From a virus, in IMG/VR virus record IMGVR_UViG_3300025674_000108, positions 1 through 40,062 of that record: a stretch of 40,062 nucleotides of DNA, one strand, 5' to 3'. Each line of letters begins with the position of its first letter. Positions within the stretch are counted from its first letter, which is position 1. Shown in pieces: positions 2,940-39,919 of this stretch. The notes below the pieces were generated by a model. The model had not been told where the DNA came from, ran no database searches, and saw only the letters and a program-made list of their open reading frames with translations. The translations under genes and the position numbers were made by a program.

Positions 2940-3242
2940 CTAAGACTGTTCTCTCTTATATTTAGAGATTATAAAAACCGAGCAATCTAATTCAATTGCT
3001 AACTCTTCTTTCGTCTTTGGCGACAATCTTATATAATTTTTTTCATCTTCGGTAAACTTCTTGCGTTTCCTACTCTCTATGATGTCGTGTATACTGTCTT
3101 GAGCTATGGCGATTTCACCACGAATTTTTGCTCGGCTAACATCCATTTTAGCATTAGTGTAAAAGGCTTTTCTTATCTCGCCTTGGGGGTCATCGCAAAA
3201 GTTTTTACGATGTGATTTTTGGTATTTCTCTATATAATCCAT
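2940..3242 (-). CDS. Helix-turn-helix DNA-binding protein, 100 aa
   Basis: The C-terminal third reads YIRLSPKTKEELAIELDCSV then FIISKYKR, the spacing of a helix-turn-helix (first helix KTKEELAIEL, turn DCS, recognition helix VFIISKYK). The N-terminal 60 residues are charged and helical, rich in Lys and Arg. It sits between the dATP/dGTP diphosphohydrolase-like gene and the helicase, with the helicase start directly after its stop. It could be a transcription regulator or a loader-type adaptor for the helicase; the sequence supports DNA binding only. It is one of three phage proteins (with the initiator and TerS) with a visible HTH, so it is a candidate reader of the GGGTSACCC arrays. That link is inference. 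Confidence 0.65.
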   Translation of the reverse strand: MDYIEKYQKSHRKNFCDDPQGEIRKAFYTNAKMDVSRAKIRGEIAIAQDSIHDIIESRKRKKFTEDEKNYIRLSPKTKEELAIELDCSVFIISKYKREQS

Positions 3243-4304: not shown

Positions 4305-4746
4305 ATTTATCTTTTGTTAAAAAATTCCTGTACAGTTTTATTCTTTCTTTAGAATTAGTGCAAGCATTTATTTCACTTGTTTTGTATTTTAATGTCTTTA
4401 GTGAAAACTCTTGTTCTTTCTTCGTAAGCCTGCCAAATCTCTTGCACAATTGGGTGACCCCTACAGGGTGCAGCAGGTCAAAACGGTGACCCTCTATGTA
4501 GTCTGCTAACTTCCTCAACGCCTCTACATATGTTACATTAGCATTGTTCCCTCCGTATCTTTTCCAGGCATTGTACACTTTACCTTCCCAAGCATTAGCT
4601 TGTCTATGGATGCATCCACGAACCACCCCTGTGGAGTGGTCGTGGTCTACAACTGCATCCGTCAGACTAATGTCAAATATAGGACACTTAGTACCCTTAT
4701 TATTATCCCTGAATTCCTTGATCTTAGTCTGAGGTAGATATTTCAT
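4252..4746 (-). CDS. Recombination endonuclease VII-like (His-Me finger) nuclease
   Basis: The N-terminal region KCPIFDISLTDAVVDHDHST with GVVRGCIHRQANAWEGKV matches the T4 gp49/endonuclease VII core, including the catalytic DHDH and the Asn in the ANAWEG helix. This family cleaves branched DNA such as Holliday junctions and helps debranch DNA before packaging. The four zinc-binding cysteines of the classic family are mostly lost: only the first of the CxxC pair is present (CPIFD), and HRQAN has Ala where Cys is usual. The active-site residues remain, so it is probably a zinc-free variant rather than a dead copy. The C-terminal 60 residues are Lys-rich and not recognised. Confidence 0.82.
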   Translation of the reverse strand: MKYLPQTKIKEFRDNNKGTKCPIFDISLTDAVVDHDHSTGVVRGCIHRQANAWEGKVYNAWKRYGGNNANVTYVEALRKLADYIEGHRFDLLHPVGVTQLCKRFGRLTKKEQEFSLKTLKYKTSEINACTNSKERIKLYRNFLTKDKYGKIKSKTKNIKNPKGS

Positions 4747-4927
4747 TTACTTCTTTGATCCAAATGATCGCACCTTTTTTAGTAGTAGTACAACCATCGC
4801 TATTAGGTCTGCGAGTACAAAAACAAGATATAGCCTTATTTTTGTCAATAGCCCAAATCTTGCGTCTCCCCATATAGCCTTTCGGCATGTCTTTATGTAT
4901 GTATTTGATTTCATATAAATTAGCCAT
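4724..4927 (-). CDS. Hypothetical protein, 67 aa
   Basis: This short basic protein (many Lys and Ile) overlaps the methyltransferase stop by 8 bases at its start and the endonuclease VII start by 23 bases at its end, so it belongs to the same transcript. It begins with a beta-strand-like segment (ANLYEIKYIHKDMPKGYMG) and includes CFCTRR and a later single Cys, which could be a partial metal site but lacks a full set. The family is not recognised. The tight overlaps and clean frame support it as real. Confidence 0.6.
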   Translation of the reverse strand: MANLYEIKYIHKDMPKGYMGRRKIWAIDKNKAISCFCTRRPNSDGCTTTKKGAIIWIKEVNEISTSD

Positions 4928-6050
4928 TTATTCTGTTAAATAATGTTACGAATGCTTTAGCACAAGTAGCAGGGACTACTCCATTTCCGAGTAGTCTGAG
5001 AGCGTCCACCCTACAGGTAGACCCATCAACTGTTCCACCCAATTTGGATTGAGCCTCCACTTCGTCAAAGAATGGTCGTGCATACCTTGTACCTGTTCCC
5101 CTAGGTTCGACTTCTGTCTGTCTACTAGACAAGCTCTTGAGTCTTGTTCCTTCGGAGTCCCCCACAACCCTTGGCTCTTCCCACTCTTGTTGTTCTTCGT
5201 CTGCTCTTGCAACTGCTTTGCATCTGAATATGCTTTCACCATTAGGGGATCGACCTGCTCCCTCAAGTTGCTTGGTAGGTTTCTGCCCTTCCGAGTTGTG
5301 CTTGCTTGCCGTACTGCAGCTTCGTAGCTTCTGCTCGGCAGGTGATCCATTGTGTTCGGTGTAGCCCAATTCTGCAGGTGTATTACTGCATCCCTCAGTT
5401 TGGCCCCGAACTCCGTTCCACTCTCCCTCTTGGCTCTGAATCCATTGTTCGTTAAATAGACATTCTTCGCTACTCCCCCCTCTGTGCATCCTGCTACACT
5501 CGGTGTTGGATATGCCAAGGATGAAGACTCTTTTTCTTTGGTGTGGCAAGCCGACTTCAGTCGCTGAGAATATTCCTGCCGTTGCTCTGTAACCCAATTG
5601 TTCCAATGTTCTGAGGACATATTTGAGAACAGGTTCTCCGTCTCCTGTCTTTTGGGTGATGATGCCTTCGACATTTTCAAGGAAAACAATTCTTGGTCGG
5701 CACTCTCTGATTCCTTCGGCAATATATGGGAACAAATGTCTAGGGTCTTCAGTTGCTCTTTTAGCTCCTGCAACGGAAAACGGTTGGCAAGGGAAGCCTC
5801 CTGAAAGAATATCCACTTGTCCTCGAAACTTTCTATATGGGAAGGTTTTAAGGTTCGTATAAATAGGTGCTTTACTAAGCCACCCTTGCTCAATCTTTTT
5901 TGCCAAGTTGAAGACTGCGTAGGCTTCGATCTCAACATAAGCGATTTCTCTGACATTTGGCAGAACTCTTTTGAGTCCAAGTCCGATTCCCTCATAACCT
6001 GTACAGAGGGAAAGGTGTGTAAGTTTTTTGGTATTATCCACATTGTTCAT
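4920..6050 (-). CDS. dcm-like: DNA (cytosine-5) methyltransferase
   Basis: The 376-residue protein carries the C5 methyltransferase motifs in order: motif I LSLCTGYEGIGLGLKRV (residues 13-29), motif IV SGGFPCQPFS with catalytic Cys88, motif VI FLENVEGI (123-130), motif VIII PHQRKRVFILG (169-179) and motif X LLGNGVVPATCAKAF near the end. It transfers a methyl group from S-adenosylmethionine to cytosine C5, probably to shield phage DNA from restriction; no partner restriction enzyme is next to it. Between motifs VIII and X lies about 155 residues of Ser/Gly/Glu-rich sequence, the expected target-recognition region. The ATG at 6050 is 16 bases inside the upstream gene and has no clear Shine-Dalgarno, so coupling is likely. 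Nearly the whole gene is overlapped by another open frame on the same strand. Confidence 0.93.
   Translation of the reverse strand: MNNVDNTKKLTHLSLCTGYEGIGLGLKRVLPNVREIAYVEIEAYAVFNLAKKIEQGWLSKAPIYTNLKTFPYRKFRGQVDILSGGFPCQPFSVAGAKRATEDPRHLFPYIAEGIRECRPRIVFLENVEGIITQKTGDGEPVLKYVLRTLEQLGYRATAGIFSATEVGLPHQRKRVFILGISNTECSRMHRGGSSEECLFNEQWIQSQEGEWNGVRGQTEGCSNTPAELGYTEHNGSPAEQKLRSCSTASKHNSEGQKPTKQLEGAGRSPNGESIFRCKAVARADEEQQEWEEPRVVGDSEGTRLKSLSSRQTEVEPRGTGTRYARPFFDEVEAQSKLGGTVDGSTCRVDALRLLGNGVVPATCAKAFVTLFNRING
4976..6043 (-). CDS. Possible overlapping gene in alternate frame of the methyltransferase, 355 aa
   Basis: A second frame, starting at an ATG 7 bases into the methyltransferase gene, stays open for 1068 bases on the same strand. 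It is not only open: it contains YPTPSVAGCTEGG, then WATPNTMDHLPSRSYEAAVR, KGRNLPSNLREQVDP and the C-terminal LNPNWVEQLMGLPVGWT. I recall this type of segment (repeated TPxxxD boxes, an NLREQVDP segment and a closing LNPxWVExLMGxPxGWT) from phage proteins encoded with or inside C5 methyltransferase genes. That suggests a true overprinted gene. Against this, the region is stop-poor in several frames, so part of the openness may come from composition, and there is no obvious ribosome site. Function unknown. Confidence 0.45.
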   Translation of the reverse strand: MWIIPKNLHTFPSVQVMRESDLDSKEFCQMSEKSLMLRSKPTQSSTWQKRLSKGGLVKHLFIRTLKPSHIESFEDKWIFFQEASLANRFPLQELKEQLKTLDICSHILPKESESADQELFSLKMSKASSPKRQETENLFSNMSSEHWNNWVTEQRQEYSQRLKSACHTKEKESSSLAYPTPSVAGCTEGGVAKNVYLTNNGFRAKRESGTEFGAKLRDAVIHLQNWATPNTMDHLPSRSYEAAVRQASTTRKGRNLPSNLREQVDPLMVKAYSDAKQLQEQTKNNKSGKSQGLWGTPKEQDSRACLVDRQKSNLGEQVQGMHDHSLTKWRLNPNWVEQLMGLPVGWTLSDYSEME

Positions 6051-6507
6051 TTAATTTGATTATTTTTGTTTTGTTCATTGGTATATCATAAAAATATTCC
6101 CCTGCTGCGATAGCCCTATTCGGAACTTCTACAACAGGTGAATCCTTAATGACATTAGAATGTATGCTAACTGCATACTCATAGTTTGAATCCCAAGCGT
6201 GATAAATGCAAGGGTAATCTAGCTCTACAAATTTTTTCTTTCTGTAGGGTATATGTATAGTATCGTATGGGAACTTGCCATTAGACCAAATGTTCCTTCT
6301 TTCGCACTCTACATAAATCTTTTTAGTAGGGTTCAGGTAGACTATCAGGTCAACACCATAGACATCAGGATTATCTTTAACACAGTATCCTTTTGAAGAT
6401 ATGTATTTCTTACTAGCATTTCTGCTCAATTCGTCTACTGCATCGAATGCTTCTTTGTTAAACTTATGGTGTTTTGACTTAATCATTTCTTCATCCAATC
6501 CATCCAA
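6034..6507 (-). CDS. Putative PD-(D/E)XK-like nuclease, 157 aa
   Basis: The segment DNPDVYGVDLIVYLNP followed by KKIYVECERRN has the beta-hairpin pattern of a PD-(D/E)XK fold, with Asp in YGVD and Glu-x-Glu in VECER as possible metal ligands. These folds occur in restriction enzymes and Holliday-junction resolvases. The C-terminal part (VVEVPNRAIAAGEYFYDIP) is conserved-looking but not recognised. It overlaps the exonuclease start region by 25 bases at its 5' side and the methyltransferase start by 17 bases at its 3' side. Adjacency to a methyltransferase raises the possibility of a restriction role, but a DNA-repair or resolvase role is equally possible. Confidence 0.5.
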   Translation of the reverse strand: MDGLDEEMIKSKHHKFNKEAFDAVDELSRNASKKYISSKGYCVKDNPDVYGVDLIVYLNPTKKIYVECERRNIWSNGKFPYDTIHIPYRKKKFVELDYPCIYHAWDSNYEYAVSIHSNVIKDSPVVEVPNRAIAAGEYFYDIPMNKTKIIKLNEQCG

Positions 6508-7244
6508 TATAATTTAGCTAGGTGTCTGAATCTAGTAATGCCCTTTTTCATTTGAGTTATTGTCCAATTCTTATGGTAGTGTTTCCTGCTCTCTGTACAT
6601 ATACAAACGCTAGTAACCATAGGTAGATAATCTAACTCAAGGTCCTGGGCCAACCAGTTTGATTCTACTGCTAATTGAGTACAATCTTTGGTCTCATAGA
6701 ATTTGCCACCTGTGCCTTTTGTATCTCTGCACTTGTAGTCAAATAGATGATATTTACCATCTACCTTTGCAATGAAATCTACTGATCCTGCTGACTTCAT
6801 CTTGTCACAGTACAGTATCTTTTCGCAGGCTATAGGTTCTACATCATTATCTCTGATGAAATCTATAAAAGGTTTCGCCCAGGGATCGAAGGGTGACCGT
6901 TTTTTAGCTTCGGCTGCTTCGTCCATTAATTTATTAATCACCTCTTCTAGCCTTGCATGGACGGCAGTACCGAACTCACTAGACTTGATAGTTGATCCAT
7001 CTACAGGACTAATTCTATGACCATACTTCATCTCCTGAATCTCTTGTACAGAAGCTAATGGGTATTCTCTAGCTAACTCTACAATCTTTCTAGGAGTCCA
7101 TATATTATCTAAGAAATCATTTTTCATCGTAGACAATATAGTTGTACAAGAAGGGTATGCTTTTACCTTCTTGGCTTGTGCAGGAGTTGAAGCCTTTGTC
7201 AAGTAAGGCTCATCTATGCAGTTGTAAAAATGTCCGTCACTCAT
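6483..7244 (-). CDS. PD-(D/E)XK exonuclease, RecB/Cas4-like
   Basis: At 253 residues it has the order of motifs seen in phage RecB-type exonucleases: EFGTAVHARLEEVI near residue 90 (motif I region with the His), SAGSVDFIAKVDGKYHLFDY then KCRD near 150-172 (the D and D-x-K active-site pair; catalytic Asp in SVDF, then DYK), and a downstream Gln in CTQLAVESNWLAQ matching the QxxxY-like motif position. It would degrade DNA ends to give single strands for the ERF annealing protein. The start overlaps the stop of a 23-residue Lys-rich frame as ATGA. All expected active-site residues are present. Confidence 0.82.
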   Translation of the reverse strand: MSDGHFYNCIDEPYLTKASTPAQAKKVKAYPSCTTILSTMKNDFLDNIWTPRKIVELAREYPLASVQEIQEMKYGHRISPVDGSTIKSSEFGTAVHARLEEVINKLMDEAAEAKKRSPFDPWAKPFIDFIRDNDVEPIACEKILYCDKMKSAGSVDFIAKVDGKYHLFDYKCRDTKGTGGKFYETKDCTQLAVESNWLAQDLELDYLPMVTSVCICTESRKHYHKNWTITQMKKGITRFRHLAKLYWMDWMKK

Positions 7245-7312
7245 TTCTTTTTCTTTTTATTAGAGTGTTTCTTTTTGGACACTTGGTTGGTTAATAGTTT
7301 AGTTGTAATCAT
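7241..7312 (-). CDS. Possible 23-aa Lys-rich peptide
   Basis: A 23-codon frame (MITTKLLTNQVSKKKHSNKK and three more Lys) starts 3 bases after the initiator gene stop and its TGA overlaps the exonuclease ATG as ATGA. The position fills the only gap between these two genes and the coupling is the kind seen throughout this genome, which is the main support. There is no clear Shine-Dalgarno and the composition is simple, so it may be only a coupling leader or chance. Confidence 0.3.
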   Translation of the reverse strand: MITTKLLTNQVSKKKHSNKKKKK

Positions 7313-7315
7313 AAA

Positions 7316-7780
7316 TTAATAAATCTCTATACCATCTAATATATCTATATTATCTGTTGTATATATGTTTGGTATTGGTTTTGCAATTTTGCAACGGCTC
7401 TTTTGCAATTTTGTAATAGGCTTTTGCATATTTGCAACACGGTTTTGCCAATACGAATCTTTGACGCACTCCTTGAATAAACTATCAGAGAGTGTGTGCC
7501 AAAGAGTTTTGTCGTATCCTCGCTTGTTGAATGAATCTTCCACAATTGCACCCTTCTTAGTGAGGTCTTTAAAGCACCTGTATATTTGATGCTTGGACAA
7601 AAACGGAAAGAAATATTGCCATTGGTTGCTTGAGTTAAATACCCAATACTTCCCTGCAATCTTGTTTCGGTTATATTTTTGATTTCGTAGGACAAAATAG
7701 ATAATGGTATGTAGGACTACTGCTTGACTGATTCCATACTTTTGTGCGTGTTCTGAGATAAAGTTGTAATTTGTCTGCAT
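7316..7780 (-). CDS. Replication initiator-like winged-helix protein, 154 aa
   Basis: The protein shows a pattern I know from phage and plasmid replication proteins: a first helix with AQKYGISQAVVLHTIIYFVL, a segment KYWVFNSSNQWQYFFPFLSK, HQIYRCFKDLTKKGAIVEDS forming the recognition and wing part, then FNKRGYDKTLWHTLSD. This corresponds to the DNA-binding domain of O-type initiators. The C-terminal 45 residues are Lys/Gln-rich and are encoded by a tandem DNA repeat, much as the lambda origin iterons lie inside gene O. It would recognise the origin and load the phage DnaB. Its 5' end overlaps the 105-residue gene by 64 bases. Family assignment is from memory. Confidence 0.7.
   Translation of the reverse strand: MQTNYNFISEHAQKYGISQAVVLHTIIYFVLRNQKYNRNKIAGKYWVFNSSNQWQYFFPFLSKHQIYRCFKDLTKKGAIVEDSFNKRGYDKTLWHTLSDSLFKECVKDSYWQNRVANMQKPITKLQKSRCKIAKPIPNIYTTDNIDILDGIEIY
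7355..7449. repeat. Iteron-like tandem repeat inside the initiator gene (candidate origin)
   Basis: Three full units and one partial unit begin at 7379, 7401, 7422 and 7443, all starting TTTTGCA and containing a second TTTGCAA-type box; the period is 21-22 bp. An AT-rich stretch (about 7321-7378, including TGTTGTATATATGT) adjoins them. The part 7355-7420 aligns without gaps to 13132-13197 at 52 of 66 bases. Repeats next to an AT-rich tract and within an initiator gene are the classic layout of a lambda-type origin. Function is inferred. Confidence 0.6.
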
Positions 7781-8034
7781 CGTGTGTCTTCTTTGTATCG
7801 TGAGTTCATATCTTCTAAAGCCTTGGTAAAGTTTTTATCCGATAGCATTTCTAAAGGTAAATCATTATCATCGTAGAGGTACTTTCCAAAGCCCTCAGTT
7901 GCCCTACAGAGCAGGCAGCCATCGCCATCCTCCTCTATGTATTCGTGCATATACTTCTTGGCTTCTGATCGTGATTTAAATACCTTATGGTATGTATTTC
8001 CAGTATAGGTTGCTCTATATATTACTACCCACAT
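7717..8034 (-). CDS. Hypothetical protein, 105 aa
   Basis: The start at 8034 is preceded by a strong Shine-Dalgarno (AAAGGAG in the minus-strand sequence), one of the best in this operon. The first 45 residues (WVVIYRATYTGNTYHKVFKS then RSEAKKYMHEYI) form a likely beta-beta-alpha fold typical of small phage proteins; CLLCRA is a CxxC motif without a second pair. The C-terminus is Ser/Thr/Gln-rich. The gene overlaps the initiator gene by 64 bases. No family is recognised and no function is proposed. Confidence 0.65.
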   Translation of the reverse strand: MWVVIYRATYTGNTYHKVFKSRSEAKKYMHEYIEEDGDGCLLCRATEGFGKYLYDDNDLPLEMLSDKNFTKALEDMNSRYKEDTRCRQITTLSQNTHKSMESVKQ

Positions 8035-8168
8035 ATTTTTTCTCCTTTCTTATTTTCTACTATTTGTATTGCAGTTACTATATCTTGTGAAAGGGAGGTG
8101 TCTCCCTGCTTTATTTTTTGAGTACTCATAAAGAGTAGCTCGGCTAGGATTTCTTCTGAATATTTCAT
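8025..8168 (-). CDS. Small protein, 47 aa
   Basis: A 47-codon frame starting at ATG 8168, one base after the stop of the preceding gene, and ending at a TAG that overlaps the next gene's start by 10 bases. It encodes an amphipathic helical peptide (MKYSEEILAELLFMSTQKIK then QGDTSLSQDIVTAIQIVE). Its 3' end supplies the AAAGGAG ribosome site of the following gene. It fills the only 130-base gap in this stretch of the operon. Family not recognised. Confidence 0.5.
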   Translation of the reverse strand: MKYSEEILAELLFMSTQKIKQGDTSLSQDIVTAIQIVENKKGEKICG

Positions 8169-8169
8169 A

Positions 8170-8499
8170 TTAATGATCTAATACATATTCTGAACTGTCG
8201 TCAATGACCTTTTGTTTAATAAACTCTATAGTCTCCTTTGGCATTTCTTCTGTAGATTTATAGAAATTTCTATTACCATATTCATCTGTATCTTCTTTAT
8301 ACTTATAATAGGATAATATTTCTATATCTTCTATGTTTACTTCTTGCCAAGATTGTGTGACTTCTCTTTCGCCATATGCACTTGTGCAATCGCAATCCTC
8401 TATATCGTAATCAACTTTGACTTCGACATCATAAGAGCAAAGTGATTTGCCCTCGGTTATTTCTATTTCTTCTAATGTGATATTTCTTGTATTTGACAT
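8170..8499 (-). CDS. Acidic hypothetical protein, 109 aa
   Basis: This acidic protein (many Asp and Glu) has alternating strand-like segments such as SYDVEVKVDYDIEDCDC and SWQEVNIEDIEILSYYKYKE. The three closely spaced Cys (one in LCSYD, then DCDC) do not form a known metal motif. The start lies one base after the upstream stop (8501) and the stop just precedes the 47-residue gene, so it is part of the same transcript. Similar small acidic proteins occur in many phage early regions, where some mimic DNA, but no family is recognised here. Confidence 0.6.
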   Translation of the reverse strand: MSNTRNITLEEIEITEGKSLCSYDVEVKVDYDIEDCDCTSAYGEREVTQSWQEVNIEDIEILSYYKYKEDTDEYGNRNFYKSTEEMPKETIEFIKQKVIDDSSEYVLDH

Positions 8500-8500
8500 T

Positions 8501-8758
8501 TTATATTTCTATTTGATCTCCTAAGTACTGCATCAAAGCTCTATATTCTATGAACTTCGATCCTAGCTCTTGATCGAGTGGTTTATATTCTTTTATAAGA
8601 GTGTCTCTTACTGACTTCTTATATGTTTCTAAAACTCTTTCTGATGGATAAGGAATCTCATCTCCAAATGCTTTGGTTAATTCTTTAGCCCTATTGAAAG
8701 AATCTGTTATCTCTGATTGATGCGTATCTATTGCATCTAGGTATTTTATTAATGACAT
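8501..8758 (-). CDS. First gene of operon C, hypothetical helical protein, 85 aa
   Basis: The frame is open back to a TTG at 8794, but the best start is the ATG at 8758 (MSLIKYLDAIDTHQSEITDS). The TTG overlaps a -35-like TTGACA and the intervening codons carry a TATAAG -10-like box, so the longer form is unlikely. The protein is nearly all helical and charged (FNRAKELTKAFGDEI, then LETYKKSVRDTLIKEYK), with a possible coiled coil. It is the promoter-proximal gene of the replication operon. No function is recognised. Confidence 0.6.
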   Translation of the reverse strand: MSLIKYLDAIDTHQSEITDSFNRAKELTKAFGDEIPYPSERVLETYKKSVRDTLIKEYKPLDQELGSKFIEYRALMQYLGDQIEI

Positions 8759-8767
8759 ATGGGCGTT

Positions 8768-8794
8768 CTTATACCAGCTATCCTGATTTGTCAA
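8768..8794 (-). promoter_or_regulatory. Candidate sigma70-type promoter of operon C
   Basis: On the minus strand TTGACA (8789-8794) is followed after 15 bases by TATAAG (8768-8773). The spacer is about two bases short of ideal. Transcription would begin near 8761, only a few bases before the ATG at 8758, giving an almost leaderless message. Confidence 0.4.
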
Positions 8795-8804
8795 GTTTTG
8801 TACA

Positions 8805-8828
8805 GGCCCTGGGCCACAATATATTGTG
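8805..8828. promoter_or_regulatory. Pair of abutting palindromes upstream of operon C promoter
   Basis: GGCCCTGGGCC (8805-8815) directly abuts CACAATATATTGTG (8815-8828), a perfect 14-base palindrome. They lie 11-35 bases upstream of the -35 box of the operon C promoter, a usual place for an activator or repressor site. Confidence 0.4.
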
Positions 8829-8886
8829 TATGGGAGTGCCTTGTGACACTATATATGGCACATTCTTCACAGATTCTTCACAAAAA

Positions 8887-8917
8887 GGGTGACCCTATGC
8901 ACCAGAAAGGGTGACCC
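8887..8917. promoter_or_regulatory. GGGTGACCC pair upstream of operon C
   Basis: Two exact GGGTGACCC palindromes start at 8887 and 8909, exactly 22 bases apart, so both face the same side of the helix. A partial copy (CCGGTGAC) follows at about 8920. They lie about 95 bases upstream of the operon C promoter and match the larger arrays upstream of operons B and A. Confidence 0.65.
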
Positions 8918-9076
8918 ATTCCGGTGACTGTTTCCAGCATTATAAATACATAAAGTATTGATAATCAACAACTTGATACTTTGGCAGCACATCAGGGCCA
9001 CTTCCTGGACTTCGCTGGTAGAGTGAGGGTGTGTTACCCTCTCTCCCCCCACACTTTCCACACACTTTATTTGCAC

Positions 9077-9106
9077 AAAAAAAGAAGGCAACCTCTCGGT
9101 TGCCCT
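9077..9106 (-). terminator. Rho-independent terminator of operon B
   Basis: GGCAACC (9087-9093) and GGTTGCC (9098-9104) form a perfect stem with a TCTC loop; on the minus strand the hairpin is followed by a T-run (complement of the A-run at 9077-9083). It closes the leftward operon that ends with the 57-residue gene. Confidence 0.85.
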
Positions 9107-9130
9107 CTTCCCATATCATATCTAATTCAC

Positions 9131-9304
9131 TTAGAAATTCGGTTGTATATCCAACTTGTACTTGTCTATACCTTCGTAATTAAAATCGTTGTTGTCAACC
9201 ATTTCCCACGCTTCATCTATGGTCTTGGCTTTGACAGTATATCTCTCAACGACTTGGAACTCTGTGAGAGTGCCTTCATCTTTCTTCTTATTGTTCTTCG
9301 GCAT
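9131..9304 (-). CDS. Small protein, 57 aa
   Basis: This short gene encodes MPKNNKKKDEGTLTEFQVVE followed by RYTVKAKTIDEAWEMVDNND and an aromatic C-terminus. Its ATG at 9304 overlaps the 3' end of the Api92-like gene by 17 bases, and its stop is 25 bases before the operon B terminator. The pattern of a basic start, a VVERYTVKAKTIDEAWEMV strand-helix unit and a short tail is common in small phage proteins of unknown role. The position just before a strong terminator supports it as real. Confidence 0.6.
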   Translation of the reverse strand: MPKNNKKKDEGTLTEFQVVERYTVKAKTIDEAWEMVDNNDFNYEGIDKYKLDIQPNF

Positions 9305-9725
9305 TTCTCTCCCCTTCTATATCTACGATCTTACCATCGACTGTTGTGGAGTGAAAGAAGCCTGCCTCTTCATCTGCTTCAAGATCAAACTTTAGCTTTG
9401 GGAACTTCTTCTTTATAGCTTCCCATAGCTCATCTGATATACGACTCCAAGCAGTCTCAAACTGCAAGCGTATCTCTCCTTCTGTCTCTTCTCCCCAATC
9501 GACATAATTGGCATTCCATTTAGTCCCCCAATTGTCACATTGCCAAGTATACCAATCGGCATCCTTTGGCTTTGGTATGTATCTATTGAAATCGAATAGT
9601 ATTCTTCTATCTTCGATCTTCTCTTCTCTTTGATAATAATTATCGTTAATAGAGAACTTCTTGAATCTATCTAATTCTTTCTGTTCTCCCTCTATATGTA
9701 TGACTGTTGTTACCCAATTTGGCAT
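9288..9725 (-). CDS. Api92-like / YubB ferredoxin-fold protein
   Basis: The N-terminus MPNWVTTVIHIEG, the internal LFDFNRYIPKPKD, DNWGTKWNANYVDWG and TAWSRIS segments match a family found in phages and plasmids, known as Api92-like or YubB-type, with a ferredoxin-like fold. The function of the family is not established. At 145 residues it is near the normal length. The ATG at 9725 has a good AAAGGAA ribosome site. It lies between the amidotransferase/cyclotransferase fusion and the 57-residue gene in operon B. I do not see metal-cluster cysteines, so ferredoxin-like refers to fold only. Confidence 0.75.
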   Translation of the reverse strand: MPNWVTTVIHIEGEQKELDRFKKFSINDNYYQREEKIEDRRILFDFNRYIPKPKDADWYTWQCDNWGTKWNANYVDWGEETEGEIRLQFETAWSRISDELWEAIKKKFPKLKFDLEADEEAGFFHSTTVDGKIVDIEGERNAEEQ

Positions 9726-9743
9726 AATGATATTTCCTTTCTT

Positions 9744-10628
9744 TTAATTATATTGATTGTAATAGTTTTGATTATGGTAACGACCTCTGTATGCATCTTG
9801 CATATCATAGTCGGTTGTACCTCTTGGCAAATCCTGCTGAACAAAGTATACCCAACAATTAGATTGACTCCAATCGTCCATACGAATCCAACATTTCTTT
9901 CTCTGATAAAATGTAGGGTGACCCTCTAGTCGATCTAAATCTTCTAAAGTTGTATCATCTACATCGTATACTTCGACCTTAACATTGTGACCCTTTTTGG
10001 GTTCTTCATATAGATAGGGTAACCCATCGACAAGTAATGGGAACTTCTCTGCAGTCTCGCCACAACCTACAAAATCTGAATGTTTAATGATCTTGTGATT
10101 GTTGTATCCTTTCTTGAGTGTTCCATATACTGCCACACGCTCTGAGGTGAAACAGTTATTCTTAGAATAATGTACACCATCTAATTCGTGCCAATTGCCA
10201 ACTCTTTTGACCCTGCCACCATTGACATCAATGATTGCATATCTTGTATCAGTAATCTCAAGGAACGGTATCCAATCTTTTTTGCGTAATCTTGGAATGA
10301 TGTTCTTTGCAATGTATGCAATGTCTGATGTATTTTTGTCACCGAATCCATCGACAGTACCATTTGAGTAAATCAAATAGTTGCTATCAATTGCAAATGG
10401 GTGAACATTAGCAAGAGTCAGGTCACCCATTGTAGCATACCTGAAATGACAGACAAGAGGTCTATCAGTATCGACTATTGAGTCTATACGGTTGTAAGAT
10501 AATGTACGATAAGTTTGTCCACTATCGAGATAAGTAATACCAAAGCCGTGAGGATTAATCACCTTGGCTTTTTGTAGTACTGAACTGGATATTCTTTTGT
10601 TCTTAGGTTTGTGTATAATTAAACACAT
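9744..10628 (-). CDS. Class II glutamine amidotransferase fused to AIG2/gamma-glutamyl cyclotransferase domain
   Basis: The start is taken as the ATG at 10628, because the product then begins Met-Cys, and Cys2 becomes the N-terminal nucleophile of a class II (Ntn-type) glutaminase; an AAAGGA ribosome site precedes it. An upstream in-frame start at 10673 would bury the Cys. Domain 1 (about 1-160) has NPHGFGITYLDSG, CHFRYATMG (Arg63) with NVHPF (74-78), and SNG (88-90), the usual substrate and oxyanion motifs. Domain 2 (about 165-265) begins VYGTLKKGYNNH and contains LEDLDRLEGHPTFYQR with Glu235, typical of AIG2-like gamma-glutamyl cyclotransferases. The C-terminus is Tyr/Asn-rich. It may supply ammonia and trim gamma-glutamyl groups, working with the amidoligase upstream. 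The joint role is inference. Confidence 0.82.
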   Translation of the reverse strand: MCLIIHKPKNKRISSSVLQKAKVINPHGFGITYLDSGQTYRTLSYNRIDSIVDTDRPLVCHFRYATMGDLTLANVHPFAIDSNYLIYSNGTVDGFGDKNTSDIAYIAKNIIPRLRKKDWIPFLEITDTRYAIIDVNGGRVKRVGNWHELDGVHYSKNNCFTSERVAVYGTLKKGYNNHKIIKHSDFVGCGETAEKFPLLVDGLPYLYEEPKKGHNVKVEVYDVDDTTLEDLDRLEGHPTFYQRKKCWIRMDDWSQSNCWVYFVQQDLPRGTTDYDMQDAYRGRYHNQNYYNQYN

Positions 10629-10660
10629 ATGATATGTCCTTTCTTTTATAGTTATTAATC

Positions 10661-10693
10661 CACTAGTGTGCAAAAATGTTCACTAGTTGTCAA
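10661..10693 (-). promoter_or_regulatory. Candidate operon B promoter with paired operator-like sites
   Basis: On the minus strand TTGACA (10688-10693) is followed after 17 bases by CACACT (10665-10670), a weak -10. The palindrome CACTAGTG (10661-10668) covers the -10 and a near copy CACTAGTT (10681-10688) touches the -35; their starts are 20 bases apart. The message would have a leader of about 30 bases before the ATG at 10628. Paired palindromes over a promoter suggest a repressor. Confidence 0.45.
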
Positions 10694-10866
10694 ACCTTTA
10701 TTTTTTTATTTTTTCTGATGGCCCCTAGCCAATTCATCCTGACACGGAATAATTTTTTGCCTCCCCAGCCTGATCCAGCTGGAGAAGCTGCCGGAGGCTG
10801 CTGGACGCTAAGTTATTGATTTTCAACCTCTTAAGCAATCCATGGACAATAAATACAGTATAAAAA

Positions 10867-10952
10867 GGGTGACCCATCAACACCGAATGGGTGACCCTTT
10901 TTTGGATGGTCTTCTTAAAATGGGTGACCCTTCTTCTTATATGGGTGTACCC
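10867..10952. promoter_or_regulatory. GGGTGACCC array upstream of operon B
   Basis: Exact GGGTGACCC palindromes start at 10867, 10889 and 10922, and a variant GGGTGTACCC at 10943. Spacings are 22, 33 and 21 bases, i.e. two or three helical turns. The array is about 175 bases upstream of the operon B promoter. Confidence 0.7.
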
Positions 10953-11116
10953 ATGATTTGATTCTTCTTCTTCTTAAATGGTTCTTCTTTAGGCACTTAC
11001 GCATATATGCATTCCCAGTAGCTCCAGCCAGCCCCAGCCAGCAGGAAATTTTGAAAAAAAAATTTTGGGTGTTCCCCAGCACAAAAAAAACAAACCTGAC
11101 CTGTGATAAGGTGAAA

Positions 11117-11164
11117 CCATAAGCAAACGGTGAACGGTGTACCCATAAGCAAACGGTGAACGGT
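11117..11164. repeat. 22-bp direct repeat
   Basis: A perfect 22-base repeat, beginning CCATAAGCAAACGGTGAACG, occurs at 11117-11138 and 11143-11164, 26 bases apart. The GGTGTACCC between them (11136-11144) is a variant of the GGGTGACCC motif, so the repeat may be part of the same control system. No coding role is evident. Confidence 0.8.
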
Positions 11165-11303
11165 TTTGCGTAGGGTATTTGCTATGGATCAAAAACAAAG
11201 CCTACACCCTGAACACAAATTGCCAAAATAAAGGCACACAAATGCACCTAGAATCGCCTTTAATTTTTGCCAAGGGTAAAGGGTAACAAATCAAATTAGA
11301 GCA

Positions 11304-11333
11304 TAAAAAAACCCTGTCGTTGTGACAGGGTTT
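11304..11333 (-). terminator. Rho-independent terminator of operon A
   Basis: AAACCCTGTC (11309-11318) and GACAGGGTTT (11324-11333) make a perfect 10-base stem around a 5-base loop. On the minus strand it runs into seven T. It lies 17 bases after the stop of the 39-residue gene and closes the amidoligase operon. Confidence 0.92.
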
Positions 11334-11349
11334 GTGCATTGGTTTTGGA

Positions 11350-11469
11350 TTATTTTCGAGGTATTACTTTCCCATTAAATAGCCAATAATCTTTTGGCAA
11401 TGGGATACCCTTTTTTTCATAATCGTCTAACCATAGATATTTTGAATTTATGTCTATTGGATATTTCAT
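11350..11469 (-). CDS. Small protein downstream of amidoligase, 39 aa
   Basis: This 39-codon gene begins four bases after the amidoligase stop and ends 17 bases before the strong terminator. It encodes MKYPIDINSKYLWLDDYEKK followed by GIPLPKDYWLFNGKVIPRK, rich in Trp, Tyr, Pro and Lys. A distinct, non-repetitive composition and tight fit between amidoligase and terminator favour a real product, possibly a substrate or partner of the amidoligase. That role is only a suggestion; no family is recognised. Confidence 0.5.
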   Translation of the reverse strand: MKYPIDINSKYLWLDDYEKKGIPLPKDYWLFNGKVIPRK

Positions 11470-11473
11470 AAGA

Positions 11474-12592
11474 TTATATTTCTACACCTGAAGCAATTAA
11501 GCGTATTGTTTCATCACTCAAAAAGCTAGTTAAAACAGGTGAGGCTAGTGGTGAGTTATTGATATGTTTTACAAGAGCTTTTAAAGCCTCTGTCTTGGCT
11601 TGTATGAGGTCATTGTCAATCGTTTGACCGTTCACCACAACCTCTAACTCATTGACCTTATAAGCTACATTATAAAAGCCATTGTCTTTAACTCTATCAT
11701 TTAGCCATTTGCAAAGGATATAAGCCTCAGTAGAGAAAGGCACAACCTCACCTTTGTCTCTACGAATTAGCTTAAGAGTTAAAAACAGATTGTACAAACC
11801 TTGCATTGTATTTCTACGGTGTGCTAAGGGTGCATCTATGCTTTGACCTTTAGAGGCTTTGCTTGTGATCATATCACACAAGGAACACCATCCGACAATT
11901 TTTGAGAAATCCAATGTAGAATTAAAATGTCTAAATTCGATTGTGCCTGATGAGTGGTAATTTCTCAAATTTAGTTTGTGATATTTAATGCTTTCACCGT
12001 TATTGGATCGGTTAAAGCTTACTCTGTCACCTCTACTTGTATTAGCACCATTTACAAGGCTGTTAGGCAGGTTTTCAGTAGTAGTACAATATCTTGCACC
12101 TCTACCACGCCTAGAGGGTGATACAAGGCAATCTAATGTTTTTTCGTACCTCTTATAAAAGTTAAGTGCATTTCTAAGGTTTTTAGCATTAAAATCTTTT
12201 GCATCAATATGCATATGCAAACCACAAGTGCCGTTCACTTTAGAATCGTGTGCATTTAAGACGGTTGTTAAATCGTCAATATGCTTGAACAATTCATTTG
12301 AGTGCAAAGGCTTTGTCACAAATTCTTTACCAATGTAAATCTCAGGTATGCTCTGTGACCTTTCAAGTGATCCATCTGTCGTAATGATGAAATCATATTT
12401 AAAAGGATCTGTTCTCATTTGGTGCTTTGCATCCTCATAACCAAGGTTTGCAACCTTGTGACCTAATTCCTCAAGATCACTCATTATTTGAGTAAGTTTA
12501 GAACGATCAATAAAGCACTCGATTTCAACGCCTTTTGTACGGTCATTTAATAGGGTGCTTGCAATGCTTTGAGCTTGTTCAGGTGTAATCAT
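11474..12592 (-). CDS. Amidoligase (COOH-NH2 ligase family)
   Basis: The 372-residue protein has the motifs of the putative amidoligase family related to glutamine synthetase: GVEIEC (21-26) with two metal-binding-type Glu, DGSLERSQSIPE with GKEFVTKPL near 73-96, NGTCGLHMHIDAKDF near 120-134 and KLNLRNYHSSGTIEFRHFNS then TLD near 205-228. Members use ATP to join a carboxyl to an amino group. The family is known from comparative genomics to travel with class II glutamine amidotransferases and AIG2-type cyclotransferases, and such a fusion lies in the next operon. The substrate (peptide, metabolite or cell-wall part) is unknown. The ATG overlaps the stop of the upstream 42-residue gene as ATGA. 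The C-terminal 130 residues are helical and unrecognised. Confidence 0.85.
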   Translation of the reverse strand: MITPEQAQSIASTLLNDRTKGVEIECFIDRSKLTQIMSDLEELGHKVANLGYEDAKHQMRTDPFKYDFIITTDGSLERSQSIPEIYIGKEFVTKPLHSNELFKHIDDLTTVLNAHDSKVNGTCGLHMHIDAKDFNAKNLRNALNFYKRYEKTLDCLVSPSRRGRGARYCTTTENLPNSLVNGANTSRGDRVSFNRSNNGESIKYHKLNLRNYHSSGTIEFRHFNSTLDFSKIVGWCSLCDMITSKASKGQSIDAPLAHRRNTMQGLYNLFLTLKLIRRDKGEVVPFSTEAYILCKWLNDRVKDNGFYNVAYKVNELEVVVNGQTIDNDLIQAKTEALKALVKHINNSPLASPVLTSFLSDETIRLIASGVEI

Positions 12593-12717
12593 TTGGAAGC
12601 CTTTCTGTTAAGGTTGAAAGGTAATGAATAAGAAGCCTTAAGAGCTTCAAAAAGTACGGTTTGAACTTCAACCATACCTTGTGGCGTGAATTTGATTTTG
12701 ATATTTTTATTGTTCAT
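12589..12717 (-). CDS. Small first gene of operon A, 42 aa
   Basis: This frame encodes MNNKNIKIKFTPQGMVEVQT followed by VLFEALKASYSLPFNLNRKA and SK. Its TGA overlaps the amidoligase start as ATGA, and its end carries the AGAAAGG sequence that serves as ribosome site for the amidoligase. It begins only 20 bases from the edge of the GGTNACC array. It may be a real small protein (substrate or partner) or a leader for translational coupling. No family is recognised. Confidence 0.5.
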   Translation of the reverse strand: MNNKNIKIKFTPQGMVEVQTVLFEALKASYSLPFNLNRKASK

Positions 12718-12736
12718 ACAATTAATGAATCAAAAA

Positions 12737-12888
12737 AGGTCACCCTTTTCAAGTAAATTGTTACCCTTTTTTTACCCTACTAAATAAAGACGGTCACCCA
12801 TTGTTTAAAAGACGGTAACCAATGCACCTAAAATGGGTTACCCTTTCTAAGGAAAAAAGGTCACCCATAGTACAAAAAACGGTCACCC
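12737..12888. promoter_or_regulatory. Phased GGTNACC array upstream of operon A
   Basis: Sites of the form NGGTNACCC start at 12737 (AGGTCACCC), 12791 (CGGTCACCC), 12813 (CGGTAACCA), 12835 (GGGTTACCC), 12858 (AGGTCACCC) and 12880 (CGGTCACCC), with weaker TTACCC half copies at 12758 and 12769. The last five are spaced 22, 22, 23 and 22 bases. Including the half sites, the phase extends over about 150 bases. The A-rich bases before most copies are also repeated. Confidence 0.75.
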
Positions 12889-13131: not shown

Positions 13132-13197
13132 TGTTGTATATATGTATGGTATAGGTGTTGCAGATTTGCAACAGGGGTTTTGCAGATTTGCAGCAGG
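13132..13197. repeat. Second copy of the AT-rich plus TTTGCA iteron element
   Basis: This 66-base stretch aligns without gaps to 7355-7420 (52 of 66 bases). It starts with TGTTGTATATATGTATGG and carries two 22-base units starting at 13156 and 13178, each with TTGCAGATTTGCA. It ends directly at the TerS start codon. It could be a secondary origin, a terminase recognition site or an autoregulatory site. Confidence 0.65.
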
Positions 13198-13199
13198 GT

Positions 13200-13751
13200 A
13201 TGACAGAAAAAGACGAGCTACAAGATGAGATTAGGGCAGCCATAGAGGAGGTTGCCAAGGACAAAGAGTTACTAAAGGTAAAGAGTTTATCTAGGTACAA
13301 CCCTGAGAGGGTTGCCAAGGTGCTATATTTGTATTCCATAGGTGTTTCGCAGACATCTATAGTTCGCAAGTATGACATACCTAGACCTGTAGTGATAGGG
13401 ATACTAGTAGATTATGCAGATTACAAAGATAAGTTTAGAGAGATGGGCGGCAAGCTATCTGCTAGGTCATATGTAAACCTAGAGAGTTTAGAAGAAGATG
13501 TAGTGCAATCTGTCAGGGAACGGATACAGACTGGCGAATATGAGCCTACACCAAAAGACATCAAAGAAATAAGCATAGCTAAGTCTAATTCTGCAAGGCA
13601 GGCATTAACTGCTAGAGGAGAAGCTAGTGCTATTACCGAAAACAGAAGTGTAGTTACACCTGAAGACTACCATGATACAATAAAGGCAGCGGAAGCTAGA
13701 ATCAAACAAATTAAAGAAGCGGAGGTAATAGATGGCGAAATGCAACAATAA
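13200..13751 (+). CDS. terS: Terminase small subunit
   Basis: The 183-residue protein has an HTH in residues about 36-72 (ERVAKVLYLYSIGVSQTSIV then RKYDIPRPVVIGILVDY), followed by a long helical region ending in KAAEARIKQIKEAEVIDGEM, as in terminase small subunits that bind the packaging site and form a ring. The ATG at 13200 is preferred over an upstream GTG at 13155, because the extra 15 codons are made of the repeat element that also occurs at 7355-7420. It starts the virion module and is separated from the large subunit by one small gene. The identification rests on HTH, length and position. Confidence 0.75.
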   Translation: MTEKDELQDEIRAAIEEVAKDKELLKVKSLSRYNPERVAKVLYLYSIGVSQTSIVRKYDIPRPVVIGILVDYADYKDKFREMGGKLSARSYVNLESLEEDVVQSVRERIQTGEYEPTPKDIKEISIAKSNSARQALTARGEASAITENRSVVTPEDYHDTIKAAEARIKQIKEAEVIDGEMQQ

Positions 13752-36727: not shown

Positions 36728-39700
36728 ATGTCTGAATACAAGTTATGGAATCCAGAGCGTAAAAGCTATGTTACTTTTGAATATGATGGTGAAGGTAGAC
36801 CTGATGCATCTACAGGTATAGAATTATTGCAAAGCAATAAAGATAACGCACTAATAGAGTTATCAAAGGGTGCACCAAAAACACCTACCAAAACTATCGA
36901 GACTCCTTACCTTACACCAAATCCATATGGTGTAAATATTGGGCCTACAGGCTTTGAGACAACTTACGAAAGACCTGTAGAAATAGATACAACAGAAAGA
37001 GATAATTGGTATAAAGAAAATGTGCCGAAAGCACTTGGTATAAATAGCTACGATTTCACTCTAGATGGTGAGGGTAGTTCTGGCGACAGAGCCAAGGCAG
37101 ATTTTTTAAGAAATGATAGACACAAAAGGCAATGGATGGAACAAGAGTACGGACCAGAAAATGTTGCCGTTTATAATGTAGGAGGAAAGCATACATTTTT
37201 TTATAAAGACCCAAAAGAAAAAGACGCAAAGTGGAAGTTTTTTGATTCACCTGATGTAAATGGATTGGATGTTACTGCAGACTTATCTGCAGATGTTATT
37301 CCCTTTTTGTTTAACATTGGCACTACGGTATTTGCTTGGCCCTACGCAACTCTAGCAACGGCACCGGCTACAGGACCAGCAGCACCTATCTCAGGTGGTT
37401 ATGTAGCTTCGACTGCAGGTAATGTTGTAGAATTTGGGGCAGGTGTAATTCAAGATGAAATTGCAGCTGAAGCACTAGGTGTAGATATAAAAAGCTCCGA
37501 AATACTTGCTATGAGAGCTACAGACTTGGCTATAAACCAAGGAACTGATGCTGTCTTAGGATTTATGGGTAAAATGTTACCTAGTTTTAAATACGGTCAG
37601 GCTTATAGTAACCAAGTTGCTAAAGAACAAACTGCCTTTTATGAATCCGTAGTAGGTCCTGATGGTCGTGTGCCCCTATATGTTCAAAGAGGTTCTAAGC
37701 AAGGTGAAGCAGGAACTGGTATTGACTTAGATAGAGCTGCTAACATAGCAAGTAAGTACCCTAATGGTGCAACTGCAAAACAATTTACTCAAGCTAGAGA
37801 AAAAGCAGTTACCGATATACGAAATAAATTCGGTGCTAATGAATTAACAGAAGCAGAGGCTGAAGTAATTCTCAGGGAATCCGTTGAGACAATGACTCAG
37901 CAGTACGATGATGATTTATTGAATGCTAAAAATGCACTAAAGGGGTTACAAGAAGAAGAAGCTACCATTAAAGCGAATATAGATAATATACCTAAGAGAG
38001 TATCTGATCAGGCAGAGGAGGCATTTGAACTAGCTAAACAGAAAAGAATAAACAAGGTGACAACTAGGGATTCTAAACCTATAAATAAACAGGGTGTAGA
38101 ATTGATTGATATAAATCGCTCTAGATACATTCAGTTAGAGGGAACTAGAACTAGAATGTTCGATAATGTTTATACAAAACTAGACAATGTAAGAGTTAAC
38201 ATATCAGATGTAATTGATAGTTTTAATACAGTTGGTAACAAAGCTAGAACTGCAGGTGAAAATGAGCTATTGCCTATTTTGATGAACTCTAGTGAAAAAT
38301 ATGCCAACAGAGTTATAACTAGTTTAGATGAGGTAGCTGAAGATCAAATTGGTTTTAGGCAATTAAATAAACTCATACAAGAGATAGAGCTTAAAATTAA
38401 TAGAGATGTAGTAGGTCAGGACGCTGCAGGACCTTCAAAGATTGATTATACAAATTTGGCAAATCAATTAAGAGGCATAAGAGATGATATACTAGAAAGC
38501 CCTGCCGTTTCAGATGCCACAAGAGCACAGTTTGATAAAGCTAATGATTTCTTCAAAAATACTATTTTGCCTTATAGAAAAAGACCTACATTTAAATTTT
38601 ACAAACCTGAAGGTGGACAAAGATATGATACTGCAATAGCACAGAATGCCAAAGGTGAGCAATTTACATTACCTAGATTAGATGGTGGAGGTAATGGTGA
38701 AGGCTATATAAATTTTGCATTACAAAGTGTATCAAACTTAAAAATGGTTTTACAAGACGGAGGTAATTCGCCTGAAGTAAGGAAAGCACTTGGTAACGCT
38801 TGGTTAAGGCTTAATGGCTTGTCCGAAGGTTCTGCCATCAATGTAGGCAAGCTGAAGGAGATGTCGGATGCAGATTTAGAAATGGCATCTATATTATTCC
38901 CAGGCAGAGGCAAGGCAGAGTTTTCACAAAAGGTACAATCATTGATTGATTTAGATAACCTTGTTCGTGACAAGGATGGTTTTATTGAAGGTATATCTCC
39001 TGAATTACATAGAAAGATAATGAATGCAGAAGACCCTGTGCAACAAGATAAGCTACTAAAAATAGCTCAACAACAAATAGAAGAGCAGAACAAGATTGAT
39101 GAAGTAACAGGTAAGGTTTTAGTAGACTTACAGAGCAAGGGAGAAATACCTACATTTAGTAATCAATTTACTATTGAGTCATACATGAGCTCATTGTTTA
39201 AAGATGGTGTAAATATAAAGCAATTCAACCAATTACTGAAGGAGGTAAGGGAAAAAAGCCCTGCAGATTACAAAGCATACAAGAGAGCTGCTTATGATTA
39301 TCTAGTTAACCGATCAGGTGGTGGAACTAATTATGAAAAGGGTGCACAGAAAGCATTTGGTGAAATTACATTCGACCCTGTACAAATGTTGAAAAACTTA
39401 GAAGATAATCGTGAAAAACTTATTTCTTTGTTAGGTGAAAATGAATTTAATTTCATAAAATCAAGAGCCAAAAGTATGAGAGAGTTCTCTGTAACTCAAG
39501 AGAAGGCAGCAGGTAAATTCAGTATTGCAGGTAATCCACTCCAAGGTTTTGGAACTGGTTTCTTTAGTGACCTAGGTGGAGTAGCTAATGAAAGATGGAC
39601 GCAGGCTATGTTGATGATAGATGATACAGGTAAGAATCCATTTAACAAAAAGCTAGTCAGCAGAAATGAGTTATTCCAAATACAAAGTAGTTTTTACTTG

Positions 39701-39919
39701 AGGGCAAACTTAGGAGTTGATTCTGCCCTTATGTTGGCAGATATGTCTGAAGCTGATCCAAGATTTAGAATGAGTTTACTCGAAGAGTACGCAGGTATTT
39801 TTCAAAGAAGTTTTGACGAACAATTAGAGTTTGAAACAAGGCTCAATGAATTGAAGATGCTAAGAGCTAACGATCCAGCATTGGATTTGACTTTCTCTCC
39901 ACCAACAGAAACAGAGTAA
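36728..39919 (+). CDS. Large virion (ejection-type) protein, 1063 aa
   Basis: Residues about 185-220 form a hydrophobic Ala/Pro/Phe-rich segment (DVIPFLFNIGTTVFAWPYAT), which could insert in the host membrane; residues about 394-441 are a coiled coil (LNAKNALKGLQEEEATIKAN). The remainder is helical and charged. The last 410 residues are repeated, with about 15% changes, in the frame at 2-1240, so two alleles of this part are present in the window. As the last and second largest gene of the virion module it resembles T7 gp16-like ejection proteins in position and general character. I see no lytic transglycosylase motif. Confidence 0.7.
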   Translation: MSEYKLWNPERKSYVTFEYDGEGRPDASTGIELLQSNKDNALIELSKGAPKTPTKTIETPYLTPNPYGVNIGPTGFETTYERPVEIDTTERDNWYKENVPKALGINSYDFTLDGEGSSGDRAKADFLRNDRHKRQWMEQEYGPENVAVYNVGGKHTFFYKDPKEKDAKWKFFDSPDVNGLDVTADLSADVIPFLFNIGTTVFAWPYATLATAPATGPAAPISGGYVASTAGNVVEFGAGVIQDEIAAEALGVDIKSSEILAMRATDLAINQGTDAVLGFMGKMLPSFKYGQAYSNQVAKEQTAFYESVVGPDGRVPLYVQRGSKQGEAGTGIDLDRAANIASKYPNGATAKQFTQAREKAVTDIRNKFGANELTEAEAEVILRESVETMTQQYDDDLLNAKNALKGLQEEEATIKANIDNIPKRVSDQAEEAFELAKQKRINKVTTRDSKPINKQGVELIDINRSRYIQLEGTRTRMFDNVYTKLDNVRVNISDVIDSFNTVGNKARTAGENELLPILMNSSEKYANRVITSLDEVAEDQIGFRQLNKLIQEIELKINRDVVGQDAAGPSKIDYTNLANQLRGIRDDILESPAVSDATRAQFDKANDFFKNTILPYRKRPTFKFYKPEGGQRYDTAIAQNAKGEQFTLPRLDGGGNGEGYINFALQSVSNLKMVLQDGGNSPEVRKALGNAWLRLNGLSEGSAINVGKLKEMSDADLEMASILFPGRGKAEFSQKVQSLIDLDNLVRDKDGFIEGISPELHRKIMNAEDPVQQDKLLKIAQQQIEEQNKIDEVTGKVLVDLQSKGEIPTFSNQFTIESYMSSLFKDGVNIKQFNQLLKEVREKSPADYKAYKRAAYDYLVNRSGGGTNYEKGAQKAFGEITFDPVQMLKNLEDNREKLISLLGENEFNFIKSRAKSMREFSVTQEKAAGKFSIAGNPLQGFGTGFFSDLGGVANERWTQAMLMIDDTGKNPFNKKLVSRNELFQIQSSFYLRANLGVDSALMLADMSEADPRFRMSLLEEYAGIFQRSFDEQLEFETRLNELKMLRANDPALDLTFSPPTETE

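Follow-up and report, generated by a model that had tools for sequence, protein, structure and literature searches.

What is the role of the repeated copies of a short palindrome, GGGTSACCC, that lie ahead of the leftward genes of this phage, and which protein might read them? The window, that is, the whole stretch of DNA that was analysed, is a 40,062-base IMG/VR phage record. Its leftward genes lie between 12.6 and 1.4 kb and specify an amidoligase, a GATase/gamma-glutamyl cyclotransferase (GGCT), an initiator-like protein (RepI) and an exonuclease, together with a C5-methyltransferase, endonuclease VII, Erf, SSB and DnaB; TerS, at 13.2 kb, is the first of the rightward (late) genes. A sequence-only reading had listed three arrays of the palindrome, each ahead of one leftward transcription unit. 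All three are real, with the coordinates and spacings it gave, and their position ahead of the transcription units was borne out, but six further sites inside leftward genes had been missed. The arrays and the genes next to them are the following.

8501..8758, minus strand: g8501, encoding an 85-aa protein with three predicted helices; the first gene past array 1 and a candidate binder or adaptor.
8887..8917: array 1, two copies of GGGTGACCC (8887-8895 and 8909-8917) at a distance of 22 bp, ahead of g8501 and the replication/recombination operon.
9744..10628, minus strand: the GATase-II/GGCT gene, putatively controlled from the array 2 side.
10867..10952: array 2, with GGGTGACCC at 10867, 10889 and 10922 and the variant GGGTGTACCC at 10943-10952.
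11474..12592, minus strand: the amidoligase gene, with array 3 upstream.
12737..12888: array 3, with GGTNACC cores at 12738, 12792, 12814, 12836, 12859 and 12881.

The site at 12813, which had been listed with the others of array 3, fits GGTNACC but reads CGGTAACCA, and so does not fit NGGTNACCC. Half-sites TTACCC/TTACCC with an 11-bp spacing are found near 12760-12778, between the first two cores of this array, and 19 bp separate the sites from the downstream short ORF that precedes the amidoligase gene. An alignment over six relatives with sites of the same class as the window phage (class N, see below) gives a full site of roughly 19 bp, the palindrome AAAADGGGTNACCCWTTTT. A comparison with shuffled sequence, which the sequence-only reading had proposed, gave 19 copies of GGGTSACCC (at most one mismatch) compared with 2.35 expected, and none of 100 shuffles reached 19. 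The shorter GGTNACC has 22 copies in the window, which places it first among odd palindromes with four G/C bases (the runner-up has 17), and 17 of these copies fall in 4453-12881, in the leftward arm; up to 24-30 copies are found in the relatives L147 and L155.

Viral contigs were scanned with TerL, RepI, GGCT and amidoligase, which yielded some 200 loci. The only named record near the window phage is phage C75C1, for which a literature search found no paper; the search for a host of the window phage gave no match in the genome collection, and Rfam gave no match either. In the relatives, which are uncultured marine phages, arrays occupy the same three slots, ahead of amidoligase, GGCT and g8501, so that the comparison with related phages that had been called for upheld the arrangement (array 1, for instance, is kept in G003/L118 and likewise lies upstream of g8501 in relatives). 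Adjacent sites tend to be 22-24, 29-34, 41-45 or 53-55 bp apart, which corresponds to two to five helical turns. A period of 10.7 bp fits best (R = 0.64, n = 36 spacings, a strength reached by 0 of 2000 random sets), and held-out arrays, which were fetched later, gave R = 0.50 at 10.7 bp with a similar phase (n = 33, Rayleigh p about 2e-4), these statistics being somewhat optimistic because related phages do not provide fully independent arrays. Spacing by whole helical turns, as in a cooperative operator array, is found in both the discovery and the held-out sets. The earlier idea of a protein that would bind cooperatively on one face of the DNA and control the leftward region is supported, at the level of sequence, by the place, conservation and helical phasing of the sites.

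Further sites lie within the leftward genes themselves.

4452..4492: two sites (4452 and 4484) that lie 155-187 nt ahead of the Erf start, within the gene for endonuclease VII.
6891..6899: a site at residue 116 of the exonuclease gene.
9916..9924: a site in the GGCT gene, in codons for EGHP.
10017..10025: a site in the GGCT gene, residue 207, common to L118, L120, L121 and L155.
10420..10428: a site in the GGCT gene, residue 73.

Synonymous-codon shuffling of the leftward genes gave a mean of 1.26 intragenic sites compared with the six observed, a number that 0 of 200 shuffles reached, and the rightward late genes showed no excess (five sites, compared with 4.55 by the same procedure). Some intragenic sites, such as that in the EGHP codons of GGCT, may be coding coincidences, at least in part. 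The endonuclease VII region of 4452..4492 also contains sites in relatives of two classes, and there the N site and the T site lie one alignment column apart in different reading frames. Likewise, the exonuclease site of the GGGTACCC-class phages G012 and G017 is one alignment column from that at 6891..6899.

These classes are three versions of the site. The window phage has class N, GGGTNACCC; in other relatives the same slots hold class T, GGGGTACCCC, and in still other relatives class S, GGGGGTAGCCACTTTT (class names by sequence, the GGGTACCC class and the GGGGTAGCC class, are also used). The N and T sites are near-palindromic, and the S site is not palindromic. The class switches in concert at conserved positions. 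On the exonuclease tree the class labels require at least seven changes, compared with a mean of 16.1 for shuffled labels; class T appears in two distinct clades and is intermingled with S. Columns 34 and 144 of the exonuclease alignment have GTG/TGG GGT ACC CC in T phages and GTG/TGG GCT ACC CC in S phages, a difference of one base and one residue (Gly/Ala), and at column 185 GGT ACC (T) faces GGT AGC (S), Thr/Ser; through these differences the phages of each class retain the site of that class. Without selection at the DNA level, such T/S pairs are difficult to account for. As the classes interconvert on the exonuclease tree, in the same columns and one base and one residue apart, a trans-acting DNA binder would be required. 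The pattern points to a regulator evolving in step with its sites, with related phages apparently switching the site sequence genome-wide and altering proteins too. These phages would thereby offer a natural record of a regulator and all of the operators of one genome changing specificity together, in which protein-coding sequence seems to bend to keep operator sites. The site classes may serve as markers of regulatory groups, because relatives are common in marine metagenomes.

How might these sites act? Relative to predicted promoters they are found on the upstream side, across the promoter and on the downstream side; those of array 2 are far upstream of the GGCT promoter (about 210-270 bp from the predicted transcription start), and others are deep within early genes. 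A scan for promoters in the window gave matches at chance level, and a TTGACA-17 promoter recurs ahead of GGCT in most relatives. This scatter around promoters and inside genes is better matched by a repressor of the looping or roadblock kind than by a classical activator. On balance, we favour the reading that the sites are operators of about 19 bp for one sequence-specific DNA-binding regulator, which would act in trans on the leftward (early) half, mainly as a stoperator-like repressor or silencer. Its targets would be the replication, recombination and amidoligase/GGCT early genes. The regulator would bind the three arrays cooperatively, on one face, with the single intragenic sites as outposts, and by joining arrays to intragenic sites it would block both initiation and passage of RNA polymerase; early transcription would be timed or shut off in this way. 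It would also regulate its own synthesis through array 1, and its specificity would shift together with all the sites of one genome. We infer that there is one protein per class, that it represses rather than activates, and that the binder is encoded by the phage, as the g8501 product or a partner of it.

The lead to this binder comes from co-occurrence. Among the GGCT loci, N, T or S sites are present in 28 of 28 with g8501 and in 0 of 32 without it, a link that partly reflects shared descent, because the loci without g8501 are mostly from distant phages. The gene lies directly past array 1, and of the genes compared it alone tracks the sites. Phages of the family that are without the module have neither g8501 nor sites, and in relatives that have lost g8501, GGCT and amidoligase, the sites inside unrelated early genes are lost too. 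The predicted model of g8501 is a three-helix bundle for which we found no structural match and no recognised DNA-binding fold; the protein is acidic in most members, and no column of its alignment separates the site classes. As none of the phage proteins that have a recognised DNA-binding fold follows the distribution of the sites, a host transcription factor might bind them instead, the class following the host and its changes mirroring changes of host, and the promoters near GGCT resemble host sigma-70 promoters. Under a host factor, however, the disappearance of sites from unrelated early genes along with g8501, GGCT and amidoligase is unexpected unless the whole control became useless, and we consider this explanation rather unlikely. 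With respect to a phage-encoded regulator, we suggest tentatively that the 85-aa helical g8501 family could represent a novel type of DNA-binding protein with sequence specificity, or an adaptor that confers specificity, working by itself or together with a host protein and governing an early-gene operator regulon. Relatives would then re-key the whole regulon in concert, nonsynonymous exonuclease changes included, perhaps escaping cross-control by co-infecting relatives. The small g8501 family is in this respect a testable candidate.

The sequence-only reading had also considered an iteron system, and had named the proteins encoded at 7316-7780, 2940-3242 and 13200-13751 as possible binders. 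The first of these, RepI, is O-like/RepA_N-like by PHROG and by fold, and the arrays could in principle be its replication-origin iterons: lambda-type iterons are 19-bp imperfect inverted repeats (PMC7466680), and inverted repeats of about 19 bp recurring at about 22 bp are common to the lambda O and RepA_N systems and to the window phage (PMC7466680; PMC7145576). Array 3 lies, moreover, at the GC-skew minimum, although this minimum is confounded by gene orientation. The window phage differs from these systems in having three arrays and intragenic sites, the latter left unexplained by an origin, and an initiator with separate TTGCA iterons. Three TTTTGCANNTTTGCAAC iterons at 21-22 bp lie in the 3′ part of the RepI gene, with two more at the TerS start, and the RepI homologue of Bacteroides phage B124-14 likewise has its own iterons. 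RepI is found without sites in G015 and L125, and N, T or S sites without detectable RepI in L143, L147 and L163, so that, by proxy, RepI does not behave as the cognate initiator of the arrays. Because the initiator-like protein has TTGCA iterons of its own, we regard replication iterons as very improbable, and RepI was rejected as the binder on the same grounds.

The TTTTGCANNTTTGCAAC iterons make up a second phased repeat system, at 7378-7441 and 13154-13197; both sets of these palindromes have a shared block, TGTTGTATATATGTWTGGTATWGGT, ahead of them. The iteron sequence is not the same in all relatives, and in C75C1 and G012 the two places carry related half-sites. These TTGCA iterons are likely to be the initiator's own sites, and perhaps contribute to late-gene control too. 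The other proposed binders also fell away: the counterpart of the HTH protein 2940-3242 in GGGTACCC-class phages is without the HTH half, and the recognition helix of TerS (13200-13751) does not track the site class. As linked factors, GGCT and amidoligase were rejected since both are present in other phages without sites, and the methyltransferase since G012 and G017 have sites and no methyltransferase match.

It is also very improbable that the sites act in RNA, as weak hairpin and U-tract terminators or attenuators in early transcripts. A T-run does follow the sites when read along transcription, S-class sites are mostly oriented in the sense direction (12:2, 16:2), and a scan showed an excess of terminator-like elements (8 compared with 3.6). 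The spacing, however, tracks the DNA helix, the S-class sequence is unable to form a hairpin and the intragenic S sites of the exonuclease gene are antisense. Finally, GGTNACC is the BstEII site, the window encodes a C5-methyltransferase and array 3 adjoins terS, yet that the sites are targets of a phage cytosine methyltransferase or TerS packaging (pac) sites is hardly credible, given G012 and G017, the S site that is not palindromic, and a TerS recognition helix that is of the same type in the siteless G015.

The sequence-only reading knew of no described phage element of this form, which is too strong, since the stoperators of cluster A mycobacteriophages (L5, TipsytheTRex) are a near analogue. 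These are short sites present in more than 20 copies, some in promoters and some in other parts of the genome, with variants specific to the phage group, and are proposed to stop both initiation and elongation; they are 13-bp asymmetric sites in short intergenic gaps, bound by a monomeric two-domain immunity repressor in temperate phages (PMC9283540). The window system resembles them in its many copies of one short site and its group-specific variants, and differs in its near-palindromic sites (in two of three classes), its phased arrays and its sites inside early genes. By analogy, it would work most like cluster A stoperators yet is not a member, because its N and T sites are near-palindromic and the window proteins that were scanned included no immunity repressor or integrase family. 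Stoperator-like control across the whole genome is thus suggested for phages that give no indication of a temperate life style. The Nostoc cyanophages A-1 and N-1 have repeated ‘promoter or stoperator’ motifs, with 21-43 copies per genome, which are also suggested regulator sites and also differ per phage; in the parts of that report that we consulted, these motifs are asymmetric and mostly intergenic, and class switching at conserved intragenic positions is not described (PMC4916379). The window system thus appears to be a variant of genome-wide phage operator systems, its notable feature being the concerted class switching at conserved positions.

Several related repeats were seen along the way. 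Phages of the GGGTACCC class have a GGGTACCC site in a region of rightward late genes (L008:8823, G012 28638, G017 4903), which in C75C1 lies near the start of the 8707-12738 gene. Higher-GC relatives (G020/G021 with L101-L104, L072, L079, L085, L088 and L158) carry another palindrome, ACTCCTTAAGGAGT, in their leftward arms, and several of them are without the g8501 gene. At the array 3 position of L105 (about 11556-11611, record G015), seven GCAA repeats are spaced by exactly 10 bp, and this relative has no GGTNACC sites. Between amidoligase and GGCT, L155 (3944-4236) and L157 (328-612) contain an additional group of repeats resembling TCTGGTGACCGTCTGG, some of them just 11 bp from one another, whose flanks are unlike those of the standard site. 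At both ends of the window, 74-1240 and about 38650-39919, there are copies of one gene end that are similar without being identical; these are either terminal paralogues or the product of a strain-mixed assembly.
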